A DNA stretch of 64,000 nucleotides from Sesamum alatum (taxonomy: Eukaryota; Streptophyta; Magnoliopsida; Lamiales; Pedaliaceae). The notes beneath the pieces were generated by a model that did not search any database, had not been told where the DNA came from, and saw only the letters and a list, made by a program, of their open reading frames with translations. Of the stretch, positions 7,190 to 34,371 are shown in pieces (positions within the stretch are counted from its first letter, which is position 1; the number at the start of each line of letters is the position of its first letter). The position numbers and the translations under genes were made by a program. Location: assembly GCA_034509735.1 (NCBI GenBank), contig JACGWO010000006.1:13159001-13223000 (forward strand). Direction: 5' to 3'.

Positions 7190-7825
7190 AGTTGATGTCA
7201 CCTTACCCTTCTTCCTCTTTTGGCGTCTGGCACCCTTGCCTTTCGCTATGGAGGTTGAAGCCTCTCCTACTAGTACCGACGGCGCAGATTTTGCAATCGT
7301 TGCCTCGTACTAGGCCAACATAATTACCAACCTATGAAGATCTTTTCTAAGCTCGTTCATGTTGATAATTAATGGTTCGTAGGAGGAAGGAAGAGACTGA
7401 AGGATCATGTCAATGTACGTCTCTAAGACTGACGTGGAGGTCTTTTGAGCTTCTCCACTAGGGATTGCATCATCACTCCATGTTCTTTGTACCGACATCC
7501 CTTCCGTCATCTTAGCTCCAAACATGCCTTCGTTGCATTTTACCCCACATGTTGGTCCAAGACCATATAGACATGATGCAAACGAAGCATAGTTTGAGCC
7601 AACATCATTATATCCTACTTGCCGGTGGTCATCCTTCAACTTTTGAACGCCAAGCGTTACCTTAGTTGTCGACCCCTCCGGCAAGGGCTGAGGAATGTCC
7701 TCATTCCGGTATGTGAGTTAAGGTTCTGGAAATCTAAGACCATCTTAAGATTTCGCAGTCAATTCGTGTAATTGGTTCCCTTTTAATGAGCCTCTTAGTG
7801 ATGTGTTTGGTGGATTCTTAGACAT
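7190..7825 (-). pseudogene. Copia gag remnant of element B
   Basis: The minus strand starts with an ATG at 7825 followed by SKN, as in the gag of element A. Stops and a frame change follow. From 7684 to 7310 a readable stretch includes the gag-typical block ILQSLPSSYEPLIINMN. A basic tail (KGKGARRQKRKKGK) near 7200-7240 matches the KTKGKGTGR-type tail in A. No zinc knuckle is found. The usual role would be forming the particle that packages element RNA; this copy cannot make a full protein. Confidence 0.75.
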
Positions 7826-9384
7826 TCACAACATATATGAAACAGAAAATAATAAGCAGAATGAAGTAATATTTTGGTTAAGTCTCGGTCTTTAGTCCTT
7901 AACCTCTCCCACTATTTCTACGAAAACACGGCACTCTCAAACGTTGTTTTCGGGAAATCCTTTCCTAGTGGGCTCGGGATCCACAGCGATCTCCCCCATA
8001 CCCCGCTTTTACGATTCGCATGGGAAAAGAACCCGTGGGAGGTATTCCATACCATTCTCGTTCCACGAGATTCCCAAGATAATTGCCTCACCCTTTCACG
8101 TGATCCCGAGGACTCCAAGCGAATCACGTTATTCGGGCGTTAGACCTGACCCAATCAACCGATTCATAGACTCACTGCTACCTCCACGACTCGTGAGACA
8201 GGTAACAGCAGTCTACTCATCGTTCATGACAAAGTGCAGCTTCTTTTAAGCACGATTGTCGTGCCACGACTCGTGAGACCACGCTATCGACCTAAAAGAT
8301 CTTCCTCACTTTTGCCATGGATGGAAGGCTTGGACAGACTCCCAGAGTCCTAGTCCATTTATTAAGGGTCTATATTTAACTTGGTTTAACCAAGTGAGAG
8401 TTTTGATAGAACGAGACCTCATCACATATATTAAGTATTGCATTGCATGCGTTATGGCAGAAATATTCTAAGCGTGAATGTAACCATACATAAAGCATAT
8501 AGAATAATCATAAACATATAATACGCATCGCATGCAAAATAAAGCCTAGCACGCCCCTGTAGGATGATCACAAGCCCAAACCTATGCGACCCACTGAGCC
8601 CGCAGTGGATCTATGGTCAATCTAAGGGTAGGCCCTACACTATTACAAGATTTAATAACCCATTACATGCAATGGGCCTTGTAAGTCCTCTTTATCTTCT
8701 TGGGCTCTCCATCGTGGGCCTACACCGGGCTTCTTCTCCATGGATATTCCGTGGGCCGTCTGATGGCAACCTCCATGGGCCTCCAACACCTTGGGCTTGT
8801 CTTCTCTTGCAGCTTTTATTTACAAAAAGAAATAAAACCTCACCACTAATTCTACTCTCATTACATCATAAAATAAGAAACCCCAATTAAACATTTGGGG
8901 GGAGTACATTAGGAGGGAGAGAGAAAGCCTTATTATTCCAAGGCACTAGAAGAGAGACAGAGAGGAAAATAAAGAGGCACACAGGCCACAACCCAACAAA
9001 TAACTGTAAATAAACCATACATGCGGTCTAGGGGCTTTGTGATCATCCTTTGTCAAATCAATTAACACAAATAGCACAAATACATATCTCACGTAAAATA
9101 TGCTATACCAACATCCATGATAATCCATACCATAAAATAAATGCAGAAACTACATGTAAAATATCCACACCAAACATTGGATAATAGTGCAACCTATGCA
9201 CAACGATTTTTGTTGGAAAAACCTTTTCCATAATTAACAAGGCAATATTAATTCTATGAAATTTAAATCTCAACCAAAATTAAAATGCCCCAAGTTAATT
9301 AATTCAGAAAAATTCCAAGAATTATACAGAAAAATTAAATTTTCTGAAACACAAAAATCAACAATTCAAGAATATGCCCATTTA
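7826..9384 (-). mobile_element. Leader of element B
   Basis: Noncoding. Its reverse complement matches the leader of A at about 10670-11870, for example the blocks around CTCACGAGTCGTGG and CTTGGAGTCCTCGG, and CCATAGATCCACTGCGGGCT. The deletion that shortened the 5' LTR joins LTR sequence directly to this leader at 9384/9385, removing the primer site. Confidence 0.8.
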
Positions 9385-10415: not shown

Positions 10416-11885
10416 AGCTAGGGTTTCTCCCTTTTTTTATTTTGTTTATTTTTTAGTTTTAATTTTTTAATTAATTCTGAAAATTTAGTTTTGTTCATTT
10501 TTCCTAATTTTCTAAGACATTATTTTAGGAGGTAAAATATATTGGATTTGGAATCCCAGGGATATTTTACCTAGAAATAATGAGGAAAGGTTTTCCTAAA
10601 ATGAGAAAATATTATTACCAATGGTTATGCCATATTTTCATACGTTACGTTTATTTTATCTTAGATAATTGTGATTGGTAATCATGTATTATTGGTATGT
10701 TGTTATTATATGATTGGATCATATGATTATGTGCGTTGGATGGAAACGGATGATCACGAGCCCTAGACCGAATGTATGGTTTAATTTTATGTTGGGCCTG
10801 TGTGCCTCTTTTAACTGCTTTCTCCTTCTCTCTCTCTAGTTGCCTTGGAATAATAAGGCATTCTATCTCCCTCCTTATGTACTCCCCCCGGGTTTTCACT
10901 GGGGTTTCTATTTTTAATATGTAATGAGAGTAGAATAGGAGTGAGGTTTCAATTTGATGTAATTGATAGAGAAGAAGGAAGGTCCACATGGAGAGCCCAG
11001 ACTGGAGGTTTCAAGGCGTTTCCATGAAGAGAAGAAAGAGAAAAGAGACCAAGGCCCATCAGAATGATGATTGGGTTACTATTACTAGATTGACCATAGA
11101 TCCACTGCGGGCTCAGTGGATCGCATAGGATTGGGGTTCGTGATCATCCAACAGGGGCGTGCTAGGCTTTAATTTTGCATGTGGTTATTGTGATGGATGA
11201 ATGGTGCTTTATTTATCATATAACTGCTGTGGATGTAATTTATTTATTATGCATTGTGGATGGATGTGCAGATATTTTATATTATGAGATCTCGGTCATT
11301 TATTACTCTACATTGATTGGACCAAAATCCAAATATTAGACCCTAGACAAAATGGACATGGACTCTAGGAGTTTGTCCATGCCTTCCAATCTATGGCACA
11401 GTGAGGAAGCTGATTTAAGTCAATAGCGTGGTCTCACGAGTCGTGGCACGTTATTGTACTTAAAAGAAGTTGCACTGTGTCATGAATGAAAGATAGACCG
11501 CTGTTACCTGTCTCACGAGTCATGGGGGTAGCAGTGGGTCTGTGGCTCGGTAGATTGGGTTGGGTCTAACGCCCGATTAACATGATTCGCTTGGAGTCCT
11601 CGGGATCATGTGAAAGGGTGAGGCAATAATTTTGGGAATCTCGTGGAACGAGAATGGTATGATATACCTCCCACAGGATTTTTTCAATGCGAATCGTAAA
11701 AGCGGGGTATGGGAAAAATCGCTGTGGATCCCAAGTCCACTAGGAAAGGATTTCCCAAAAACAACGTTTGAGAGTATCGTATTTTCGTATAAATAGTGGG
11801 AGCATTAAATGACTAAAGACCAAGCATTTAATTATTTTTATCAAACCACCATCTTTTATATTCTGCTGATCGCGTAGATTTAAAA
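10416..11885 (+). mobile_element. Leader of element A, right part
   Basis: Noncoding stretch up to the gag ATG. It aligns with the leader of B in reverse. I see no additional gene. A tRNA-like or structured element cannot be judged by eye. Confidence 0.75.
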
Positions 11886-12760
11886 ATGTCTAAGAACTCA
11901 CTTTCCACCATACTTGAGATAAACAAATTCAATGGAACCAATTACAACGACTGGTTGCGCAATCTCAGGATACTCCTGGATTACGAGAACCAAGGATACG
12001 TCATGGACGAGCCTCTCCCTAGGACCTTGCCGGAAAGATCCACGCCAGAAGAACGTGAGACGTTCGAGACTTGGCATAAAGATAATCGGAAGGTCCGTAG
12101 CGTCATACTTGCTTCAATGACGAATGAGATTCAGAAGCAGTATGAAAGGCTAGACGATATCCCTTCCATTATGGCTCGCCTTAAGGATTGCTATGCAGTC
12201 CCGGACCGGCATACTAGGTATGTCGCGACCAAGGCGTTCTTTGGAACCAAAATGACAAAAGGATCCTCTGTACAAGAGCATGGGGTTAAAATGCTTACCC
12301 TGGTGGAAAAGCTCGAGGACCTAAAGACAGGCCTCGACAATGAAACACACATAGATGTGATCCTTCTGTCACTCCCACCCTCCTTCGACTAATTTATCGT
12401 CAACTACAACATGAACGCACTTGAGAAGGGCATTCATGAGTTGATTAATATGTTGGTGCAATACGAGGCAACGACCAAAAAGTCCACACCTTCGGTATTG
12501 TCTGGAGGTGCTTCGACTTCCAAAACGAAAGGCAAGGGTACCGGACGTTGAGAAAAAGGAAGAAAGAGAAGAGAAAGGCCGTCAAAGCAGCTACGGACAC
12601 TAAGAGTGTTCCCATTGTCAAAGAGGGGAAAGGCAAAGGAAAGGGAAATGTTGTCTCCAAGCAACAGTCGAAGGCATATGACATATGTATCAATTGCCGT
12701 GAGAAAGGGCATTGGAAGAGAGAGTGCCCCAAGCTCCTCTTGAACCAAGGTATATTTGTG
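11886..12760 (+). pseudogene. Copia gag of element A, broken
   Basis: An ATG at 11886 opens 168 codons of copia Gag (UBN2-type). INKFNGTNYNDWLRNLRILL is near the start and ILLSLPPSFD near the end. A TAA at 12390 stops the frame, and the following codons still read as Gag. A second stop and a frame change near 12545 come before a lysine-rich stretch and the zinc knuckle CINCREKGHWKREC (C-x2-C-x4-H-x4-C) at about 12690-12731, which binds element RNA. The normal product would form the cytoplasmic particle. The breaks mean no full Gag from this copy. Confidence 0.85.
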
Positions 12761-22144: not shown

Positions 22145-22644
22145 NNNNNNNNNNNNNNNNNNNNNNNNNNNNNNNNNNNNNNNNNNNNNNNNNNNNNNNN
22201 NNNNNNNNNNNNNNNNNNNNNNNNNNNNNNNNNNNNNNNNNNNNNNNNNNNNNNNNNNNNNNNNNNNNNNNNNNNNNNNNNNNNNNNNNNNNNNNNNNNN
22301 NNNNNNNNNNNNNNNNNNNNNNNNNNNNNNNNNNNNNNNNNNNNNNNNNNNNNNNNNNNNNNNNNNNNNNNNNNNNNNNNNNNNNNNNNNNNNNNNNNNN
22401 NNNNNNNNNNNNNNNNNNNNNNNNNNNNNNNNNNNNNNNNNNNNNNNNNNNNNNNNNNNNNNNNNNNNNNNNNNNNNNNNNNNNNNNNNNNNNNNNNNNN
22501 NNNNNNNNNNNNNNNNNNNNNNNNNNNNNNNNNNNNNNNNNNNNNNNNNNNNNNNNNNNNNNNNNNNNNNNNNNNNNNNNNNNNNNNNNNNNNNNNNNNN
22601 NNNNNNNNNNNNNNNNNNNNNNNNNNNNNNNNNNNNNNNNNNNN
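22145..22644. other. Assembly gap (500 N)
   Basis: Exactly 500 N, a conventional filler length, so the true distance is unknown. Reading frames drawn through it are meaningless. The sequence resumes at the same viral position that follows a 30-A tract at 30924-30953, so the gap probably broke at a matching A run. Confidence 0.98.
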
Positions 22645-23187
22645 TTTTAAATTTATGATAAATATACGGGGAAAATAAATGAATATGGAAAGGAGACCTT
22701 TGGGTCGTTCCCTTAAATTATGAGGATGAAGGAAGTCTGTTTTACCACTGCTGCCCGGTTTTGCCAAATATGGCGTTGTGTGGGCCTTTTGGTGGTGTTT
22801 TAAGACTGAATTCGTACTTATTAATTTAACGGAGCGTAAAAGGTTCCCAAATTTACTCTATTCCTATTCATTTAAATTCTCTTTATATAGATCACAATTT
22901 AAGATACTCCTTTTTTTTTGATCGCCTTTCGCCTACATGGTCGGATTTACATTCCGCCTACATGGTCGGATTTTTGGCGATTTTTGTATATTTTTGGTAT
23001 CTCTCGTCTTCCGCCTACATGGCCGGATTTATATTCCGCCTACATGGTCGGATTTTACGGCGAGGTTTTGTATTGTATATTCCCGATCCCTCCATGGCAT
23101 GTCGCCATGGCTCCTTATGGTATCAGAGCCATGTTATTGAAGTTGTATTGGATAATTCAACAGTACTTGTTTTATATATTGCTTAAT
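22645..23187 (+). promoter_or_regulatory. Pararetroviral leader, copy 1
   Basis: Noncoding leader nearly identical to 30956-31499. It has four copies of a CCTACATGGTCGGATT-type repeat (about 22929-23056), short upstream start codons and the primer site. Its promoter would lie in or beyond the gap. Confidence 0.75.
23118..23130 (+). promoter_or_regulatory. tRNA-Met primer binding site, copy 1
   Basis: TGGTATCAGAGCC, complementary to the 3' end of initiator tRNA-Met, the usual primer for minus-strand DNA in Caulimoviridae. Confidence 0.85.
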
Positions 23188-24238
23188 ATGCAATATTTAT
23201 CTGTTTCAGATATAAATACTGTTAAAAATTCCAAAAAGGAAGAATATGAAATTCCTAAGAATTTAAGTCAATTAAATAAATGGACAATTCCTAAGGTAAA
23301 TCCTAGATTAATTTATAATTTCGGCCGATTTGATTTTTGGAAGACAAAACAGATTGTAAAGACTAGTGAGGAATCAATAGCCCTTGATAATGAAGAAAGA
23401 GTAATAAAAACTTTTAGATGCTATGGATATAGGGCATTATCAGGATGAATATAAATTTTTACATATAGGATTAGTACAAATTGCTTTTAAACCCTTAACA
23501 TTAGAAGGTTTACCTGAAAGTTTTTTTAGCTGCTCTTAGAGATGCAAGGAATTTAGATTGGAAAAAATCTTTGATTGGGATAAATACAATCCAGCCTAGC
23601 TCACGGGCCGGTATTTTTTTTAATGTCTATCCGAATTTACAATTGTCCTTATCGGATGCAAATATATTAGATGCTTTAACATTAAATGTTAAAACTCATG
23701 GGTATAATTATACACCCGGATCTGAATTAATATGTGTATGTTATAGAATATATTATAAACTTCTTCATACCCTTAATCCTAACTGTAGAATACAAGATAA
23801 TAAGTCATTAGAACAAACTATATTTTTTTGAAACAAATTTACATAGTTCTAGAATTAATACTAGAAGGCAAATAAAATGGAGTGAAATAGAATTCCCAGA
23901 AAGTTGGATAATTGAGAAAGAAGTTCCAATTTCAAGTCATATAGAAAGTAATTATGCTAGTATTGTTCAAAATCCAGAAGGAAATGTTAGAATAGACTTT
24001 ATTAATAACCAACCAAAATGTTTAAGAAGCAATTCTTCAAGATATTCTACACCAGTTGAAATTATGACTCCATCTAGAGCATCCACTTCACAAAATAGAG
24101 AAGAAAATAGCCAAGAAGATATAAGAGAAAATAAAGTTGAACAAATAAGGATTCAGTCTAATAATATTGCTAAAGGGATATATAAAGATCCAAGATTAAA
24201 TGAAGAATTAACTTCAGAAACAAATTTTTGTTTATAAA
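23188..24238 (+). pseudogene. Pararetrovirus movement protein, copy 1 (frameshifted)
   Basis: Same sequence as the intact copy at 31500-32543, but broken by extra bases in or beside single-base runs: near 23405 (A run), 23522 (T run), 23582, 23612 (T run) and 23824 (T run). Readable pieces keep the 30K-type core, for example NVYPNLQLSLSDANILDAL and GYNYTPGSELICVCY. The protein would act at plasmodesmata in cell-to-cell spread. As read, this copy is not translatable. Because every break is a run-length change, uncorrected sequencing error is as likely as decay. Confidence 0.8.
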
Positions 24239-24239
24239 A

Positions 24240-24597
24240 TGAATAATTTAAATCTAATTGATTTAGAAACAGAGATCCCATTAGTAGACTATTCTAAAAT
24301 AATAGATTTTAGTCCTGGATCTCTAGTTAGAAAAAGAAATTCAGAAAGAATTCAAGGAAGAAAGATGGAAACCATTTAGGAAATGGTTCTTTGAAAAACT
24401 TTAATATAGCAAACCAAAAAATAATCTCTCAACAATTTTATAAAGAATTAACTATAAGGAATAAAATAGTTGCTTTTGTTCCCTGGTTTCTCATCAAATA
24501 TTCAGAACAATATTTAAATGTACTAGAGAGAAAGTATTTTTTAGATAATGGAAAAATTGTTAATAACATATTTCCCCTCAACAATCATTTAAAATGA
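24240..24597 (+). pseudogene. Small pararetroviral ORF after movement protein (broken)
   Basis: An ATG at 24240 follows the movement-protein stop and opens a short frame that ends near 24379. A second open piece (24391-24597) covers the rest in another frame. The final TGA overlaps the ATG of the next ORF (ATGA at 24594-24597), the close packing typical of these viruses. I recognise no domain. Position alone would fit a small aphid-factor-like or unknown ORF, and I do not assign one. Confidence 0.5.
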
Positions 24598-25010
24598 ACT
24601 CGAATGAAATAGAAATTAATTTTAAAGCATTTTCAAAATTAATTGAAGATGATACCCTAATAATTACAATGGCCCAAATTAATGAGTTAATGAAAAAACA
24701 AAATTATACAAATTTGTATTTAAATATTATAGGAGAACAAATTACCGAACTAAATAAAAAAATAGATAAAATATCTAATTGGCAGCAGGAAATTAATTCT
24801 AAAAATACAGTAATTGGTGGACTAAATAAAGAAATCATAGCAAAATCATCAATCCAACCGCCTCCTGAAATTGAAGATTTCCATTTAAAACCCTTAGGAG
24901 AATTAGAAAAATTATTGGATCAAAAATTTAGGGACTTAAAATTAAACACCTTAAGTGATGACATGACAACTGAAAATAGTAGAAAAAAATTTGCCAGAAG
25001 GAATAAATAA
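24594..25010 (+). CDS. Pararetroviral coiled-coil ORF, probably upstream part of the coat-protein ORF
   Basis: 138 codons from an ATG that overlaps the previous stop. Residues about 35-75 are rich in L, I, E, K and N with heptad-like spacing (around LYLNIIGEQITELNKKIDKI), suggesting a coiled coil. Position just ahead of the coat protein recalls virion-associated proteins of caulimoviruses. However, the coat-protein frame is entered at an A7 run (about 24985-24991), so the two may be one ORF separated by a run-length error. Confidence 0.55.
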   Translation: MNSNEIEINFKAFSKLIEDDTLIITMAQINELMKKQNYTNLYLNIIGEQITELNKKIDKISNWQQEINSKNTVIGGLNKEIIAKSSIQPPPEIEDFHLKPLGELEKLLDQKFRDLKLNTLSDDMTTENSRKKFARRNK

Positions 25011-26511
25011 AATAGAGAAATATGCTAGGAAGCCTATGCAAACAAAATTTTATTATCCTAGGCCCACACCTCAAGACATACTATATGAGGAACAAGAGAT
25101 TTATGACCAGCATAGCTATAATGGGAAACAAATTTATGAATGGAATATAGATGGTTATACAGAAAGACAAATCTACAATACTATTCACAGAATGATGATG
25201 TATAGTACTGTCTGTAAAGGAAATAATAATACAGATAAGGCTATTGCTAAAATGATTATAGCAGGTTTTACAGGACAATTAAAAGGCTGGTGGGATAATT
25301 ATCTTAGCCCGATGGACAGAAATGAAATTTTGAGTACAGTCAAACCAGAAAATATGGAAGAACAAGCAGTCTATACACTTGCCATTAATATAGTAGAACA
25401 TTTTACAGGGAGATGGTCCGATAATAGTGAAAATATTAGAACCCTATTACAGAATTTCCAATGTAAAACTCTAACATCCTTTAGGTTTTACAAAGATGTC
25501 TTCCTTACTAGAGTAATGGAACTCCCAGAATCCAATGATGCTCATTGGAAATCTAGATTCATCGATGGACTTCCTCACCTATTCGCTGAAAGGGTTAGGA
25601 AGAATCTCAGAAATGGAGGGGTAGCAATAAATTATAATCAATATACTTATGGGAAGTTAATTGGAACTTGCATTCAAGAAGGTTTAAATCTATGCAATGA
25701 AATTAGATTAAATAAACAAATTAAAAGACAAAATTTAACAGAGAAGAAACAACTAGGAGAATTTTGTGCTCAATTTGGAATAGAAATGATGCCGTCAGAT
25801 AGACAAAAAATTCCCAAATATAGGACCCCAGAGGGAAAAAAGAAAAGACATAAAAAACGGAGTGATAGAAAAGAAAAAAAATAAACAAAGAAACATAACC
25901 AGAAAAGATGAATGGAAAACTAAAAATAATGTAACAAAAAGATAAGAAGATGTTACATTTGCGGTGAAACAGACCACCTTGCAAATAGATGTAGAAATAA
26001 AAGAGCTAAAAGATTAAAAAAGAAGATTAATAGTCTTAAATTAGAAGACCAAGAAAAAGAAAATATAATAAATACAATATTTTCTGAAGGAAAAGAATCT
26101 TCCGAATCTGAAGAATTAGAAGAAAATAATCAAGATGAATTAGGAAATATAGAAGAGAATCCTGAGAATTTATCAACCTCGGATGAATCAAATGAAGAAG
26201 AAGATTCTTCTTGTCCATGTAAACAAGGGACTAATGAAGAAGAATCAGATGATGAATTTTATGAATTAATGGCACAATTCAAAGATTTGTCAACAGTAAA
26301 TGTCCTTACAGATAATCATATAGTTGAGTTGCTCAGGGAAATTAAGGACCCTGAAATAAGAAATATTATCCTTAGTAAAATGGATAACAATAGAGGTTCA
26401 TCTTCTGAGTCAAATCAGACATATGAAAACTTAATTAGTAAACCATTTGAACCCTATACAATTACTGAAGTTAAAAAAATACTCAGAGAAAAACAAACCA
26501 TTAAAAGATAA
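24991..26511 (+). pseudogene. Pararetrovirus coat protein with zinc knuckle (broken)
   Basis: The open piece 24991-25884 reads as a caulimovirid capsid: an aromatic block with GWWDNYL (about 25285) and ENIRTLLQNFQCKTLTSFR, then a basic tail. After a stop at 25882 and two compensating frame changes in A runs, the same frame resumes with the RNA-binding knuckle CYICGETDHLANRC at 25951-25992. A very acidic E/S-rich region follows, to 26511. Capsid core, CCHC knuckle and acidic end are the usual features. The last 65 bases overlap the next frame. Confidence 0.75.
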
Positions 26512-28625
26512 CCCTTCCACTGCAGAAGATCTAAAATTAGAAGTTGAAAAATTAAAAGAAGAAATAAAAAATATTAAGAAATATAATCAGACTCTTACTA
26601 CTAGAATAGAAATATTAGAAATAGACAAAAATAACAAATTCATTGAATTAAGTAAAGAGAAAATTGAGGATAATTTCCTATCTACATTAGAGGTAGTGAC
26701 CAGTCAAAAATGGAATATAAAGATTGACTTATTGATAAGTAATAATTTTAGAAAAACATTTACTGCTCTAGTAGATAGTGGGGCAGATATTAATTGTATA
26801 AAAGAAGGATTAATACCAACCAAATACTTTGAAAAAACAACTCATTCATTATCCTCTGCCAATGGGCAAAAAATTGAACATAAGTTTTAAAATCCCAAAA
26901 GCTTATATATGTAATAATAAAAAATGTATCCCTATGAGTTTCCTACTAATTAAGGATTTAACAAATGATATAATCTTAGGAACACCCTTTCTAAAAAAGA
27001 TTTTCCCAATAAAAAACATTAATGACAAAGGTATAATAGGAACATTTGAAGATGAGATAATAAAATTTGAATTTATTACTCAACCAATGGATAAAGTTAT
27101 TAATGAAATAAGAGATTTAATAATTTCTAAAACAAATCAAATCTGTTTTATAAAAGAAGAAATCAATTCTTTACAGATAGATGAATTACTTCAAAATCCA
27201 AAATTACAAGCAAAAATTAAAATGGTTCAAAATAAATTCGAACTTGAGACATGTAATGAACACCCTAATGCATTTTGGCATAGAAAGAAACATATTGTAA
27301 GCCTCCCATATGAAAATGAGTTTTTAGAAAAAAATATTCCCACTAAGGCGAGACCTTGTCAGATGAATTCCGAATATCTAGAGTTATGCAAAGAGGAGAT
27401 TAAGGGATTAGTAGATAAAAAACTAATTAGATCCTCTAAATCACCTTGGTCATGTACTGCTTTTTATGTTAATAAACATGCAGAACAGGAAAGAGGGAGA
27501 CCTAGACTTGTTATCAATTATAAGCCCCTCAATAAAGTTTTAAAATGGATAAGGTATCCAATCCCCAATAAAAAAGATCTTTTAGATAGATTGCATAAGG
27601 CAATAATTTTTTTCAAAATTTGACTTAAAATCAGGATATTGGCAGATTCAGATAAGTGAATCAGATAGATATAAAACTGCATTTACAGTTCCTTTTGGCC
27701 ATTATGAGTGGAATGTTATGCCTTTTGGTCTGAAAAATGCACCTTCAGAATTCCAAAATATCATGAATGATATTTTTAACCAATTCTCGAACTTTATTAT
27801 TGTTTATATTGATGACATCTTAGTCTTCTCCAATAACATAGAAGACCACTTTAAACATTTAGAAATGTTTAAAACGATAGTCATTCAAAATGGATTAGTA
27901 ATATCTAAACAAAAAATGAGTATCTTCCAAACTAAGATAAGATTTTTAGGTCACAATATCGAAAAAGGAGAAATAATTCCCATTAACAGATGCATAGAAT
28001 TTGCAGATAAATTTTCGGATAAAATTATTGATAGAACTCAATTACAGAGATTTTTAGGAAGCCTAAATTATATAGCTCCATATTACAAAAATCTTGCACA
28101 AGACACAGCATTATTATATGATAGGCTCAAGAAAAATCCATTGGAATGGACAGAAGATCACACTAAAGCAGTTAGGCTAATAAAACAGAAGGTTAAATCA
28201 TTACCATGTCTAACACTAGCAAATCCTAATTGGAAAGAAAATAATAGAAACAGATGCTTCTGAAATAGGATTTGGAGGAATATTAAAACAAATCGATAAT
28301 AATAAACAAGAATATTTAGTTAGATTCCATTCTGGAAAATGGAAAGCAGCCCAATTAAATTATGCTACAGTGGCTAAAAGAAGTTCTTGCTATTGTTAAA
28401 TGTGTTTTAAAATTCCAAGATGACTTATTAAACCAAGAATTTATTATCAGAACAGATTGTTCTGCTGCTAAGTTTATGTTTAACAAAAGACTTTAAGCAT
28501 GATGTTTCTAAACAAATGTTTGCTAGATGGCAAGCACATTTAGCTCCATTTAATTTTACAATAGAACATATTAAAGGAAAGACTAATAGTCTTCCTGACT
28601 TCTTATCAAGAGAATATCTAAATGA
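26447..28625 (+). pseudogene. Pararetrovirus protease / reverse transcriptase / RNase H (broken)
   Basis: Order is coiled-coil-like N-terminus, aspartic protease (LVDSGADINCI at 26768-26800), RT (LVINYKPLN near 27507, YIDD at 27805-27816) and RNase H (ETDAS near 28246, RTDCS near 28450, end DFLSRE near 28605). The frame changes near 26885, 27610, 28245, 28385 and 28490, each at or beside an A or T run. This enzyme copies the pregenomic RNA into virion DNA. There is no integrase, so integration was passive. As written it cannot be translated whole. Confidence 0.85.
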
Positions 28626-28984
28626 ACACAGACATTGGTAAATTTAACTGGATTGGAGGAGAATTCTTTATAGGAGTAAGTACCTCCTCTAAAATCCCAG
28701 ATTATTGGGTTGAAGATAGGATTGAAGGAGAAAGTTATTGGATGAATGGACTAAAATGGCCTGTATATAGGTTTGAATTTTGGGATGAGCCTATTGAATA
28801 TAAGGCACGACTTAAAAGAATTCAGAGAATAATAAGAAAAAAGATTGAGGAGAGAAAAAAAATTATTTCGGAAATTCTTATTCAACATCCAAATGCAGAC
28901 ATGTCTTATCATTATCGCATAAAAAATATTTGGATAGCAAATTTGTTGTATCACCAAAAAATTGCAGGATATTATGCCGGTTAA
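28622..28984 (+). CDS. Pararetroviral ORF of unknown function, 120 aa
   Basis: ATG at 28622 overlaps the end of the RNase H frame, and the stop at 28982 abuts the next ATG at 28985. The first half is aromatic and acidic (EFFIGVSTSSKIPDYW); the second is basic (RLKRIQRIIRKKIEERKK), then YHYRIKNIWIANLLYH. I do not recognise a domain. It is one of the few viral frames here that is unbroken. Confidence 0.55.
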   Translation: MNTDIGKFNWIGGEFFIGVSTSSKIPDYWVEDRIEGESYWMNGLKWPVYRFEFWDEPIEYKARLKRIQRIIRKKIEERKKIISEILIQHPNADMSYHYRIKNIWIANLLYHQKIAGYYAG

Positions 28985-30485
28985 ATGAATAATCCTTTTA
29001 TTGCAGGAATGCTTCCTCAAAGAGGAAGAGGCAGAAACTCCTCCAATCAGAGAGGAGGTAGATTTAGACCAGGCGAAATTATACGCCAAGGTAACAGATC
29101 ATTAATTAAAGACAACATTTCCGGAATAGGAAGATACAATAAAGTCTCTGAGGAAGAAAATGAGCTCTTCCAGCAATTCCTCATATTTAAAAAGGAGCAG
29201 AAAAAAATCGCCGCCGAAGAAGTATCATCTTCTTCAGTATCTTATGCTAAAATATTGGAAGAAGAAGATGAGTTAGTAAACTATAAATTTAGTGAACATC
29301 AGGAAGTAATTATACTTCTGGAAAATGAGGATTTAAGGTGGGAAAAAGATCCATGGTATCTAATGAAAAGATATCTGGATGTGACAGCATTCACAGCAGG
29401 TTCATATAAACCAAGGGCTCATTATGAGTGTATCCTGAAAGCAATGCAAAGTGTTGAAATTACTCACACTTATTCCAATAATGGAAAAGAATTTAATTAC
29501 TCAAAAGCAGTAATAAAAAAATTCATTACTGCTGTTGAATGGGGAATTAACCCATTAGGTGAAAAAGAATATATTCATCCAGAGTCTAAATCCCCAATAA
29601 AATTTAATTATTGGGACTATGTTGAAGCATTCAACAAAAACTTTTCTCTATGAAAATTATAAGAGAAAACACACATGGTTTTTCAAAATTTGTCCATTAG
29701 TTTTCCAACAAGAAGTACCAAATTGGGTATTTCAATGGTGGTTAAATTATGGTCCTCCAATTTCTATACTCCCTGAAATTTTCCAGGGTTATTATACGGA
29801 ATGGATCAATTGTTCGCCAAAAATTATCCAGGCGGAAAAATCACAGAAATGGATTGAAGGAATGGCCTCATTCTTCTTTTTTATGGAATTCTCACTTCCA
29901 TGGATTTGGAAATGGCTACCTGAAGTAGGAATGACCTTACAAAAAATTCCTTGTATTAAAAGGAAATCTTGTTCTAAATTTTGGAGTAAATTAATGCTCA
30001 TCAATCCGGAAACAAAAAAATATTTTTGTCAAGAAGCACTTGATGAAATGGAGGAAAAACTCCAAGAATACAAAGCACTCCTGGAGAAGGAAGAAAATCA
30101 GACTCCTAGCCCATTCGAGCAAATATCGCAAAGAATCAGGAGCAAGAGAGGTATTATCTCTAAAGAACAAATGATTGAGGAATATCTCAATCAAGTCCAG
30201 AAAGACCTCAAACGAAATCTGACAGGAGCAGAGTCCCCAATGGAAACCTCTTCCAAAGATGAAGAAAATAAGTATTCTTGTTTAGCAGGGGAATCACAAG
30301 ACCCATTTGAAGAATCCAACCACGAAATTATCCTTGATCAACTATTTCAGGGAATCAGGACTGCTTTGAAAGCAAAATCAAAAGTTGGGACTTCTGAATC
30401 TTCAGAGGAACAAAGGATAGATTACCACAAAAGATCCGAAGAAGAATCGGAAGAAAGTAATTTCTCCAAAATAATGAAGAAATGA
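28985..30485 (+). pseudogene. 3' pararetroviral ORF, RG-rich N-terminus (one frame change)
   Basis: Opens with an arginine/glycine-rich stretch (MLPQRGRGRNSSNQRGGRF), an RNA-binding-like composition. A readable domain to 29653 follows. After a frame change near 29636-29650 (A and T runs) it continues to 30485 with an aromatic block (PNWVFQWWLNYGP, PWIWKWLPEVG), then an acidic, coiled-coil-like tail. Its place, last before the promoter, is that of the caulimovirus transactivator/inclusion protein, but sequence alone does not let me call it that. Confidence 0.6.
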
Positions 30486-30541
30486 AAGCAGACAGCATAA
30501 TGCCGGAAGAAAACAAAGTCGAAAATTTTTGACCGAGTCAA

Positions 30542-30576
30542 AGCAACACGTGTCACACATACAGCAACACGTGTCA
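30542..30576 (+). promoter_or_regulatory. Paired G-box elements upstream of viral promoter
   Basis: AGCAACACGTGTCA occurs twice, 21 bp apart (CACGTG at 30547 and 30568). G-boxes bind plant bZIP/bHLH factors, and about two helical turns of spacing suits cooperative binding. The pair is duplicated at about 32802-32836 without a TATA box. Confidence 0.6.
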
Positions 30577-30680
30577 TTCATGTAATACGTCTGGAGATGA
30601 CTCCAGCCATGTGTCTTAATGCATAAGACACCTGTCAATCACAGACGGATTTGAAATAATACTTTCAGATCCGGCCTCCC

Positions 30681-30715
30681 TATAAATACCCCCTCTTAGA
30701 TCATTAGAGGTAGAA
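30681..30715 (+). promoter_or_regulatory. Pregenomic RNA promoter (TATA box and start region)
   Basis: TATAAATA at 30681-30688 lies after the last ORF and downstream of the G-boxes, the usual place of a 35S-type promoter. A start about 30 bases on (about 30711) is inferred. Transcription would run through the leader and movement protein of copy 2 into the inverted arm. Confidence 0.65.
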
Positions 30716-30919
30716 AAAAAAACACCCTTGTACATGTATATCACCTTCTTTGTCCCTCACTAAATAAGATTTCAGCTTTGTGTACGAGTTTACACTTCTG
30801 TAAGTTTTTTACTTTAAATTATTGTATTTATTTATTGTATTTGTATTCATTTTGCTTTTAGCCTAATGGAAGGCTAAGTTCATACTGTTGAATTATCCAT
30901 GACAACGAAGATGGCAAGG

Positions 30920-30923
<4 letters not shown>

Positions 30924-30953
<30 letters not shown>
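30924..30953 (+). repeat. Poly(A) tract of 30 at the junction before copy 2
   Basis: Thirty uninterrupted A about 210 bases after the inferred RNA start. Copy 1 begins, after the gap, at the same viral position that follows this tract. Confidence 0.9.
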
Positions 30954-30955
<2 letters not shown>

Positions 30956-30956
<1 letters not shown>

Positions 30957-31499
30957 TTTAAATTTATGATAAATATACGGGGAAAATAAATGAATATGGA
31001 AAGGAGACCCTTTGGGTCGTTCCCTTAAATTATGAGGATGAAGGAAGTCTGTTTTACCACTGCTGCCCGGTTTTGCCAAATATGGCGTTGTGTGGGCCTT
31101 TTGGTGGTGTTTTAAGACTGAATTCGTACTTATTAATTTAACGGAGCGTAAAAGGTTCCCAAATTTACTCTATTCCTATTCATTTAAATTCTCTTTATAT
31201 AGATCACAATTTAAGATACTCCTTTTTTTTTGATCGCCTTTCGCCTACATGGTCGGATTTACATTCCGCCTACATGGTCGGATTTTTGGCGATTTTTGTA
31301 TATTTTTGGTATCTCTCGTCTTCCGCCTACATGGCCGGATTTATATTCCGCCTACATGGTCGGATTTTACGGCGAGGTTTTGTATTGTATATTCCCGATC
31401 CCTCCATGGCATGTCGCCATGGCTCCTTATGGTATCAGAGCCATGTTATTGAAGTTGTATTGGATAATTCAACAGTACTTGTTTTATATATTGCTTAAT
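30956..31499 (+). promoter_or_regulatory. Pararetroviral leader, copy 2
   Basis: Together with 30711-30955 this gives a leader of about 790 bases before the movement protein. It contains short start codons, four related 20-base repeats at 31241-31260, 31265-31284, 31322-31341 and 31347-31366, and the primer site at 31430-31442. Long structured leaders with small ORFs are translated by shunting in this family. Confidence 0.7.
31430..31442 (+). promoter_or_regulatory. tRNA-Met primer binding site, copy 2
   Basis: TGGTATCAGAGCC, identical to 23118-23130. Confidence 0.85.
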
Positions 31500-32543
31500 A
31501 TGCAATATTTATCTGTTTCAGATATAAATACTGTTAAAAATTCCAAAAAGGAAGAATATGAAATTCCTAAGAATTTAAGTCAATTAAATAAATGGACAAT
31601 TCCTAAGGTAAATCCTAGATTAATTTATAATTTCGGCCGATTTGATTTTTGGAAGACAAAACAGATTGTAAAGACTAGTGAGGAATCAATAGCCCTTGAT
31701 AATGAAGAAAGAGTAATAAAACTTTTAGATGCTATGGATATAGGGCATTATCAGGATGAATATAAATTTTTACATATAGGATTAGTACAAATTGCTTTTA
31801 AACCCTTAACATTAGAAGGTTTACCTGAAAGTTTTTTAGCTGCTCTTAGAGATGCAAGGAATTTAGATTGGAAAAAATCTTTGATTGGGATAATACAATC
31901 CAGCCTAGCTCACGGGCCGGTATTTTTTAATGTCTATCCGAATTTACAATTGTCCTTATCGGATGCAAATATATTAGATGCTTTAACATTAAATGTTAAA
32001 ACTCATGGGTATAATTATACACCCGGATCTGAATTAATATGTGTATGTTATAGAATATATTATAAACTTCTTCATACCCTTAATCCTAACTGTAGAATAC
32101 AAGATAATAAGTCATTAGAACAAACTATATTTTTTGAAACAAATTTACATAGTTCTAGAATTAATACTAGAAGGCAAATAAAATGGAGTGAAATAGAATT
32201 CCCAGAAAGTTGGATAATTGAGAAAGAAGTTCCAATTTCAAGTCATATAGAAAGTAATTATGCTAGTATTGTTCAAAATCCAGAAGGAAATGTTAGAATA
32301 GACTTTATTAATAACCAACCAAAATGTTTAAGAAGCAATTCTTCAAGATATTCTACACCAGTTGAAATTATGACTCCATCTAGAGCATCCACTTCACAAA
32401 ATAGAGAAGAAAATAGCCAAGAAGATATAAGAGAAAATAAAGTTGAACAAATAAGGATTCAGTCTAATAATATTGCTAAAGGGATATATAAAGATCCAAG
32501 ATTAAATGAAGAATTAACTTCAGAAACAAATTTTTGTTTATAA
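31500..32543 (+). CDS. Pararetrovirus movement protein, copy 2 (intact ORF)
   Basis: 347 codons from the ATG at 31500. The frame is open upstream, and in-frame ATGs at 31419 and 31443 (beside or inside the primer site) are alternatives; I chose the first one clear of that site. The middle part has the 30K-type movement-protein core (NVYPNLQLSLSDANILDAL, GYNYTPGSELICVCY). The last 100 residues are polar and low in complexity. Such proteins widen plasmodesmata for virus spread. From residue 80 on, the DNA is repeated in inverted orientation at 32862-33680, so its transcript could fold on itself. Confidence 0.75.
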   Translation: MQYLSVSDINTVKNSKKEEYEIPKNLSQLNKWTIPKVNPRLIYNFGRFDFWKTKQIVKTSEESIALDNEERVIKLLDAMDIGHYQDEYKFLHIGLVQIAFKPLTLEGLPESFLAALRDARNLDWKKSLIGIIQSSLAHGPVFFNVYPNLQLSLSDANILDALTLNVKTHGYNYTPGSELICVCYRIYYKLLHTLNPNCRIQDNKSLEQTIFFETNLHSSRINTRRQIKWSEIEFPESWIIEKEVPISSHIESNYASIVQNPEGNVRIDFINNQPKCLRSNSSRYSTPVEIMTPSRASTSQNREENSQEDIRENKVEQIRIQSNNIAKGIYKDPRLNEELTSETNFCL

Positions 32544-32557
32544 ATGAATAATTTAAA
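31739..32557 (+). repeat. Inverted repeat, sense arm (819 bp)
   Basis: Pairs with 32862-33680. The arms have equal length, and the 220 movement-protein residues readable on both arms agree at every position I compared. Confidence 0.9.
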
Positions 32558-32861
32558 GAATCCATTTGAAGAATCCAACCACGAAATTATCCTTGATCAA
32601 CTATTTCAGGGAATCAGGACTGCTTTGAAAGCAAAATCAAAAGTTGGGACTTCTGAATCTTCAGAGGAACAAAGGATAGATTACCACAAAAGATCCGAAG
32701 AAGAATCGGAAGAAAGTAATTTCTCCAAAATAATGAAGAAATGAAAGCAGACAGCATAATGCCGGAAGAAAACAAAGTCGAAAATTTTTGACCGAGTCAA
32801 AGCAACACGTGTCACACATACAGCAACACGTGTCATTCATGTAATACGTCTGGAGATTAGA
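32544..32861 (+). pseudogene. Spacer: viral 3' ORF end joined to a small-ORF start, then G-boxes
   Basis: The start of the small ORF after the movement protein (ATGAATAATTTAAA) is joined, with a few extra bases, to the last 60 codons of the 3' ORF (as at 30304-30485). This makes an accidental 66-codon frame, 32544-32744. Viral sequence then continues to about 32858, including both G-boxes but stopping before the TATA box. 32558-32861 is the loop between the inverted arms. Confidence 0.75.
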
Positions 32862-33680
32862 TTTAAATTATTCATTTATAAACAAAAATTTGTTTCTGAA
32901 GTTAATTCTTCATTTAATCTTGGATCTTTATATATCCCTTTAGCAATATTATTAGACTGAATCCTTATTTGTTCAACTTTATTTTCTCTTATATCTTCTT
33001 GGCTATTTTCTTCTCTATTTTGTGAAGTGGATGCTCTAGATGGAGTCATAATTTCAACTGGTGTAGAATATCTTGAAGAATTGCTTCTTAAACATTTTGG
33101 TTGGTTATTAATAAAGTCTATTCTAACATTTCCTTCTGGATTTTGAACAATACTAGCATAATTACTTTCTATATGACTTGAAATTGGAACTTCTTTCTCA
33201 ATTATCCAACTTTCTGGGAATTCTATTTCACTCCATTTTATTTGCCTTCTAGTATTAATTCTAGAACTATGTAAATTTGTTTCAAAAAATATAGTTTGTT
33301 CTAATGACTTATTATCTTGTATTCTACAGTTAGGATTAAGGGTATGAAGAAGTTTATAATATATTCTATAACATACACATATTAATTCAGATCCGGGTGT
33401 ATAATTATACCCATGAGTTTTAACATTTAATGTTAAAGCATCTAATATATTTGCATCCGATAAGGACAATTGTAAATTCGGATAGACATTAAAAAATACC
33501 GGCCCGTGAGCTAGGCTGGATTGTATTATCCCAATCAAAGATTTTTTCCAATCTAAATTCCTTGCATCTCTAAGAGCAGCTAAAAAACTTTCAGGTAAAC
33601 CTTCTAATGTTAAGGGTTTAAAAGCAATTTGTACTAATCCTATATGTAAAAATTTATATTCATCCTGATAATGCCCTATA
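32862..33680 (-). repeat. Inverted repeat, antisense arm (movement-protein fragment)
   Basis: Reverse copy of 31739-32557 without length change. The minus-strand frame reads the movement protein from residue 80 to its stop at 32876, with no promoter or in-frame ATG visible for it. The arm ends at 33680 (GCCCTATA), where ordinary genomic sequence begins. Confidence 0.9.
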
Positions 33681-33701: not shown

Positions 33702-33810
33702 ACTTAGATGATGTTAGACAACATTTGAATTCAGACAACATCGACCGTTAGATCACCTCGAACGTTAGACAACATCGGGATTTAGACCACATCGAAAGTT
33801 AGATGAATTC
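33702..33810 (+). repeat. Degenerate short tandem repeats at the viral border
   Basis: Four or more imperfect copies of a 16-20 base unit with the words GTTAGACAACATCG, TTAGACCACATCG and GTTAGAT, directly beside the virus junction. Confidence 0.6.
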
Positions 33811-34371
33811 AAACTTTAATGATTTTTTTTCTTTCAAAGTTGAAATTGTTGTGCAACATCGTGTGGGGTGCCTATTTAATTTTTCAATTAGATGATTGTT
33901 TAGGATTGGTGGATGGAAAATATTGTGAGATGGTTAAGTGTGAGTGTTGTTGTTGTTGACTGTAGTTTTAGGTTGTAATTTTTTTAAGTTTAAAAATAAT
34001 AATGCACGTTGTAAGCATTCACACACAAACACCATGCACACATAGATTTTCGTAGGGCCATAAGGACGTTATAGGCCATAACGACGTGCACACTCAAGAC
34101 ACACATATAGTATAGTTCAAACATGTTGCGCTTCAAAGACGTCTAGTATAGGGTGTCATCCACAAATGTGATACATGCACCACCCCACACAAAGACATTA
34201 GGAACTTACACACACACTATGCATAGTCAACCAAACAAATACATACTCATTACACACAAGCAACATGACATCAACATGACAACACACACATACTCAATAC
34301 CCACACAAAAGAAACAAAAACAAACACACTTAAAATGAAACTAATAAATTTTATGATTGTTCTTAGGATGG
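33811..34371. other. Intergenic, AC-rich
   Basis: No gene seen. From about 34010 to 34330 the plus strand is rich in CACA words; open frames there are low-complexity artefacts. Confidence 0.6.

Follow-up and report, generated by a model that had tools for sequence, protein, structure and literature searches.

Organization of the locus

The window, by which we mean the whole 64,000-nt stretch of the Sesamum alatum genome that was analysed, contains an endogenous caulimovirid (endogenous pararetrovirus, EPRV) that combines, in a single unit, a movement protein (MP), coat protein, protease and reverse transcriptase, all of Caulimoviridae type. The corresponding Pfam domains, PF01107 (MP), PF24925 (DUF7746), PF22909 (caulimovirus coat), PF00077 (retroviral protease) and PF00078 (reverse transcriptase), were detected in separate frames. 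The EPRV is integrated in host chromosomes: the window lies inside contig C82 (38.3 Mb) and includes exons of the host gene UMPS, which when joined match S. alatum UMPS with 100% identity over 317 aa, and the copies scored in our genome search are located on contigs C77-C85 and C87. The features relevant to this analysis are as follows.

22145..22644, no strand: 500-N assembly gap adjoining MP copy 1; viral sequence resumes just past the position of the leader poly(A)
22645..24252, + strand (direct): MP copy 1 and part of the leader, equivalent to 30956-32557
24253..30485, + strand: EPRV body, with coat protein (DUF7746 and caulimovirus coat), protease, reverse transcriptase and the last ORFs
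30303..30598, + strand: source of the spacer, comprising the 3' end of the last ORF and the 5' half of the promoter (self-comparison)
30542..30693, + strand: putative promoter, with two CACGTG G-boxes (30547, 30568) and a TATA box (30681)
30711..31499, + strand: leader, from the presumed transcript start, with a poly(A) tract (30924-30953) and a primer-binding-like motif (31430)
31500..32543, + strand: open frame of MP copy 2, 347 aa, PF01107
31739..32557, + strand: sense arm of the inverted repeat (self-comparison of the window)
32558..32561, no strand: junction A, 4 nt matching neither adjoining block
32562..32857, + strand: loop, an exact second copy of 30303-30598
32856..32861, no strand: junction B, a 2-nt overlap between the spacer and the inverted viral sequence, read by eye
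32862..33680, - strand: antisense arm, ending at junction C in non-viral DNA

The initial annotation had described an EPRV-derived inverted repeat with a promoter in front, a description upheld by the exact arms, the G-box and TATA words upstream and the viral Pfam domains. Self-comparison of the window revealed that the arms are 100% complementary over 819 nt with 304 nt between them, far above chance, confirming that they are of equal length. The MP domain PF01107 was detected in frames of both arms, and the 220 residues reported to agree correspond to a 220-residue frame of the inverted arm that is contained in the sense-arm frame. In a predicted RNA fold of the arm-loop-arm region, 819 of 819 arm positions are paired end to end (MFE -1430 kcal/mol), in keeping with the long duplex anticipated for this locus.

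While the 304-nt length given for the spacer was correct, its identity required revision. Most of it is a 296-nt exact duplicate of 30303-30598 in the identical direction, which rules out leader sequence or anonymous filler, and this copy has two G-boxes, at 32806 and 32827, but lacks the TATA box of the promoter. Reading from the letters by eye, the inverted viral copy begins a few bases before the arm, at about 32856. No viral match was found in the window to the right of about 33696, where host sequence continues. Short tandem repeats with a 17-nt unit occupy 33713-33814, in the host DNA that borders the insertion on the right.

A motif scan of the window located CACGTG at 30547 and 30568 and TATAAA at 30681, which agrees with the G-box/TATA arrangement previously noted upstream of the arms and would be consistent with promoter function. 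In the leader, the poly(A) tract measures 21-37 nt in the 26 copies where it was readable, and the motif at 31430 is presumably a tRNA primer-binding-like site. A 41-nt pair at both leader ends (30883-30923 and 31437-31477) is 76% complementary, comparable to the large leader hairpin typical of pararetroviruses.

Within 24253-30485 the coat and polymerase regions are divided among several frames, and matches to homologues show frame changes in the coat region; these splits may reflect either decay or consensus errors. Element decay was dropped as a clock because run lengths are all that distinguishes MP copies 1 and 2, such that ORF breaks are inseparable from run-length consensus errors.

Of 1064 candidates from searches with the MP, 286 were homologues at E up to 0.001, and the top one among the best 120 of these is 80% identical; named relatives among the matches listed (again the best 120 of 286) are from Solanum, Nicotiana, Saponaria, Helianthus and Rhodiola. 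For the coat, there were 431 homologues among 659 candidates, the best 120 of which were examined. Judged by the similarity of its MP and coat to plant EPRVs, the element looks solendovirus-like. The EPRVs of Solanaceae, whose MP and coat relatives we take to belong to the genus Solendovirus, resemble it, since relatives of its MP and coat protein occur in Solanum, Nicotiana and further plants, whereas the present host is a member of the Pedaliaceae. In the portion available to us, a survey of recently inserted reverse-transcriptase domains records Solendovirus in only two plant families (PMC9794742). When viral contigs were searched with the MP, six stretches matched a pattern and none encodes a relative. 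Neither Rfam (gathering threshold) nor ARAGORN gave a match in the window, and a PDB sequence search with a coat fragment likewise gave none.

Related copies in the window and the genome

The arm was used as a query against the S. alatum genome (G000; 527674879 bases in 89 contigs), yielding 322 first-look candidates, 40 of which were scored: the two arms at 100% and 38 others at 98%. We observed a young EPRV family on C77-C85 and C87, several copies of which are in tandem with about 8.3-kb spacing. Our comparison set consisted of 48 loci, all from top-scored matches (the 38 and further matches), and did not include the three loci of the window itself (L001, L002 and L009) or one host-repeat locus (L010). 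Seven of the 48 (L013-L019) were picked because neighbouring matches suggested an inverted or duplicated arrangement; two of these seven have L041 and L051 as their partner ends.

Pairwise comparison of 30 full MP copies (about 834 nt) gave on average 0.96 substitutions per pair, with a maximum of 3 and zero in 140 of 435 pairs. The plant neutral rate is about 7e-9 per site and year, at which the family would be roughly 80,000 years old, a figure that gene conversion or another rate would change. By these sequence comparisons, S. alatum holds a young, amplified family of the EPRV. At L013, a young copy lies next to an older relative (positions 4-708) with about 81% identity to the MP, and on sequence identity the genome holds two or more EPRV lineages.

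Copy 1 of the MP is located one unit (8.3 kb) upstream of copy 2; no substitution separates the two, which differ in 8 single-letter run lengths. The assembly gap adjoining copy 1 falls at the position of the leader poly(A) tract. Copy 1, copy 2 and the inverted arm have in common a deletion of 15 nt that are present in L004; the deletion occurs in 0 of the 30 other MP copies, which are 833-835 nt each compared to 819 in the window, and the one substitution that distinguishes the window is found in 1 of the 30. As the deletion is common to these three copies and absent from the 30 others, they most likely descend from one founder.

The 5' breaks of MP-bearing viral blocks were also tabulated. 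Across L003-L052 there were 53 blocks, 21 of which reach the edge of the stretch, and 18 of the remaining 32 breaks fall within a 51-nt stretch (31420-31470 in window coordinates) at the primer-binding-like motif; sampling was centred on MP matches, and the break at L007, counted among the 32, is an N gap. A tRNA primer-binding site is the expected minus-strand discontinuity, and integration or rearrangement seems to start at this motif.

Inverted repeats of at least 200 nt are present in 8 of the 48 other loci (L013, L014, L015, L021, L027, L029, L041 and L051), and in 5 of 41 once the seven loci picked on such hints are set aside. The arms of seven of these eight contain 1-9 mismatches, with the 9 differences at L029 counting twice since this locus was aligned to itself, while L041 has gaps only; these repeats are therefore not fold-back copies. 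At L013 the arms are 2.3 kb with a 131-nt spacer, and at L041 and L051 the fetched stretch truncates the left arm. Each of these three loci has a TATA box outside both of its arms and directed into them, and thus the order likened to an engineered hairpin by the initial annotation recurs in the S. alatum genome. Promoter, arm, loop and arm do occur in that order in the window; the arrangement is not special here, being by sequence one of many rearrangements.

These comparisons bear on whether the inverted arm was produced by the assembly or library, through a read that was chimeric or folded back, or through an incorrect path across a repeat. Identical arms would be expected from a chimeric read, the family is highly repeated, and the 500-N gap together with the run-length differences of copy 1 indicates imperfect consensus nearby. 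The absence of differences between the arms is nonetheless not discriminating, as zero substitutions also separate the 140 pairs of other copies. Moreover, the palindrome of a read fold-back mirrors one continuous sequence to the end of the molecule, whereas here the loop originates from a different part of the element and the right arm ends in non-viral DNA, beyond which the window goes on as host sequence. The inverted arm also has the deletion particular to this locus rather than the common form. Given the non-viral right flank, the filler and microhomology at the junctions, and the diverged arms at the other inverted repeats, a simple assembly fold-back is unlikely; we consider an artefact of any of these kinds improbable and the structure very probably real. 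The three junction words were found in 0 of the 48 other loci, which shows uniqueness within that sample only.

Potential RNA output and proposed origin

The hairpin idea for rearranged EPRVs has already been published for tomato, where the loci known as transcriptionally competent siRNA areas (TSAs) consist of endogenous caulimovirids rearranged into inverted repeats that give 22-nt siRNAs and degradation in trans (Valli, Gonzalo-Magro and Sanchez 2023), as described in the accessible part of PMC10377300; the same idea for EPRV inverted repeats is restated in the part of PMC12904150 available to us. The window locus shares the inverted-repeat conformation of a rearranged endogenous caulimovirid and could likewise give rise to a hairpin RNA, whereas the siRNAs and trans degradation are reported from tomato and the window locus is known from sequence. 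By its sequence structure it is the same kind of locus in a new host, the likeness being structural since RNA evidence defines the tomato kind. In soybean, long inverted repeats derived from caulimovirids and transposable elements yield DCL2-dependent 22-nt siRNAs (Jia et al. 2020), and those from caulimovirids feed DCL2 according to PMC10377300, albeit in another host and from another element. Excerpts of PMC9124383 tie EPRV 22-nt RNAs in tomato hybrids to DCL2. Banana eBSV and petunia ePVCV are similar in having fragments duplicated in the same or opposite direction, or head-to-tail arrays; they belong to other genera and are not presented as promoter-ordered hairpins in the available text of PMC10377300. 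We found no literature on an EPRV family in Sesamum, judging by titles and abstract openings.

Five AATAAA words lie between the promoter and the loop, at 30985, 31587, 31715, 32177 and 32436, and could end an RNA before the second arm. As caulimovirids bypass a promoter-near poly(A) site on the first pass, read-through past these words is plausible. Whether small RNAs are produced from the hairpin structure is, in our estimation, close to evenly balanced, leaning slightly towards no.

Each of the 48 other loci contains exact matches to at least 72% of the arm 22-mers (median 93%), and none were found in the rest of the window. Against the 81% relative in L013, 0 of 798 arm 22-mers match, with only about 470 nt of this relative overlapping the arm. 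Because the arm 22-mers match the family and not this relative, small RNAs from the arms would most likely hit mainly their own family or a near-identical virus. These figures also weigh against a selected RNA-memory locus that shields the plant from related exogenous viruses, as do the spread of the family to many near-identical copies and the lack of an MP relative in the viral contigs searched. The promoter-arm-loop-arm architecture would suit such a locus, and tomato RNAs of this kind can act in trans per the consulted portion of the review PMC10377300; on balance we regard it as very unlikely, and a selected antiviral role in general as only slightly less so. A real structure, small-RNA production and an antiviral role are not mutually exclusive.

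The locus may instead be a functionless EPRV remnant, silent and held by ordinary 24-nt RNA-directed DNA methylation, whose promoter-arm-loop-arm order is accidental. Rearrangements in both orientations are common, as the eight other inverted repeats attest, and some of these are head-to-head, with no TATA box within the stretch at L014, L015 and L029. Methylation and small RNAs are also usual for endogenous caulimovirids in the part of PMC10377300 available. The retention of the promoter words and a complete MP frame argues against a remnant, as does the activity of similar loci in tomato described in that review, leaving it a credible account to which we give somewhat less than even weight.

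The best explanation, which we favour with some confidence, is a rearranged tandem EPRV insertion that is a potential hairpin source silencing its own family. The order of the blocks, their identities, the shared 15-nt deletion and the similar inverted layouts at other loci are observed; the joining and RNA steps we infer. Under this explanation, the young caulimovirid insertion in S. alatum was first tandem and then rearranged, and the locus would be its right-hand end. The 296-nt fragment from the promoter side would have been attached first, followed by an inverted MP fragment that was copied from the same founder, through end joining or template switching as the virus integrated or when the site was later repaired, giving promoter, leader, MP sense, loop, MP antisense and host DNA. 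If the promoter is active and the RNA passes both arms, an 819-bp duplex would form, which Dicer-like enzymes would cut into small RNAs that silence the family to which the element belongs, along with any near-identical virus.

A broader proposal, which we advance as speculative and consider rather unlikely, is that S. alatum harbours a set of recent promoter-ordered EPRV hairpins (the window locus, L013, L041, L051 and probably more), formed repeatedly because integration breaks favour the primer-binding site and fragments join in opposite directions. Their small RNAs would jointly shut down their own family, amounting to self-limiting amplification and not immunity to other viruses. If small RNAs arise, S. 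alatum would represent a young case (copies about 0.1% apart) in which to see whether a virus family is silenced by its own accidental hairpins, the tomato observation would be extended to another plant order (Lamiales), and self-limitation would become testable in accessions that carry or lack individual hairpins.

Elsewhere in the window, a segmented inverted repeat that is 72-88% complementary (7224-8360 and 11350-12547) encloses a gag frame that we labelled copia-like by eye.
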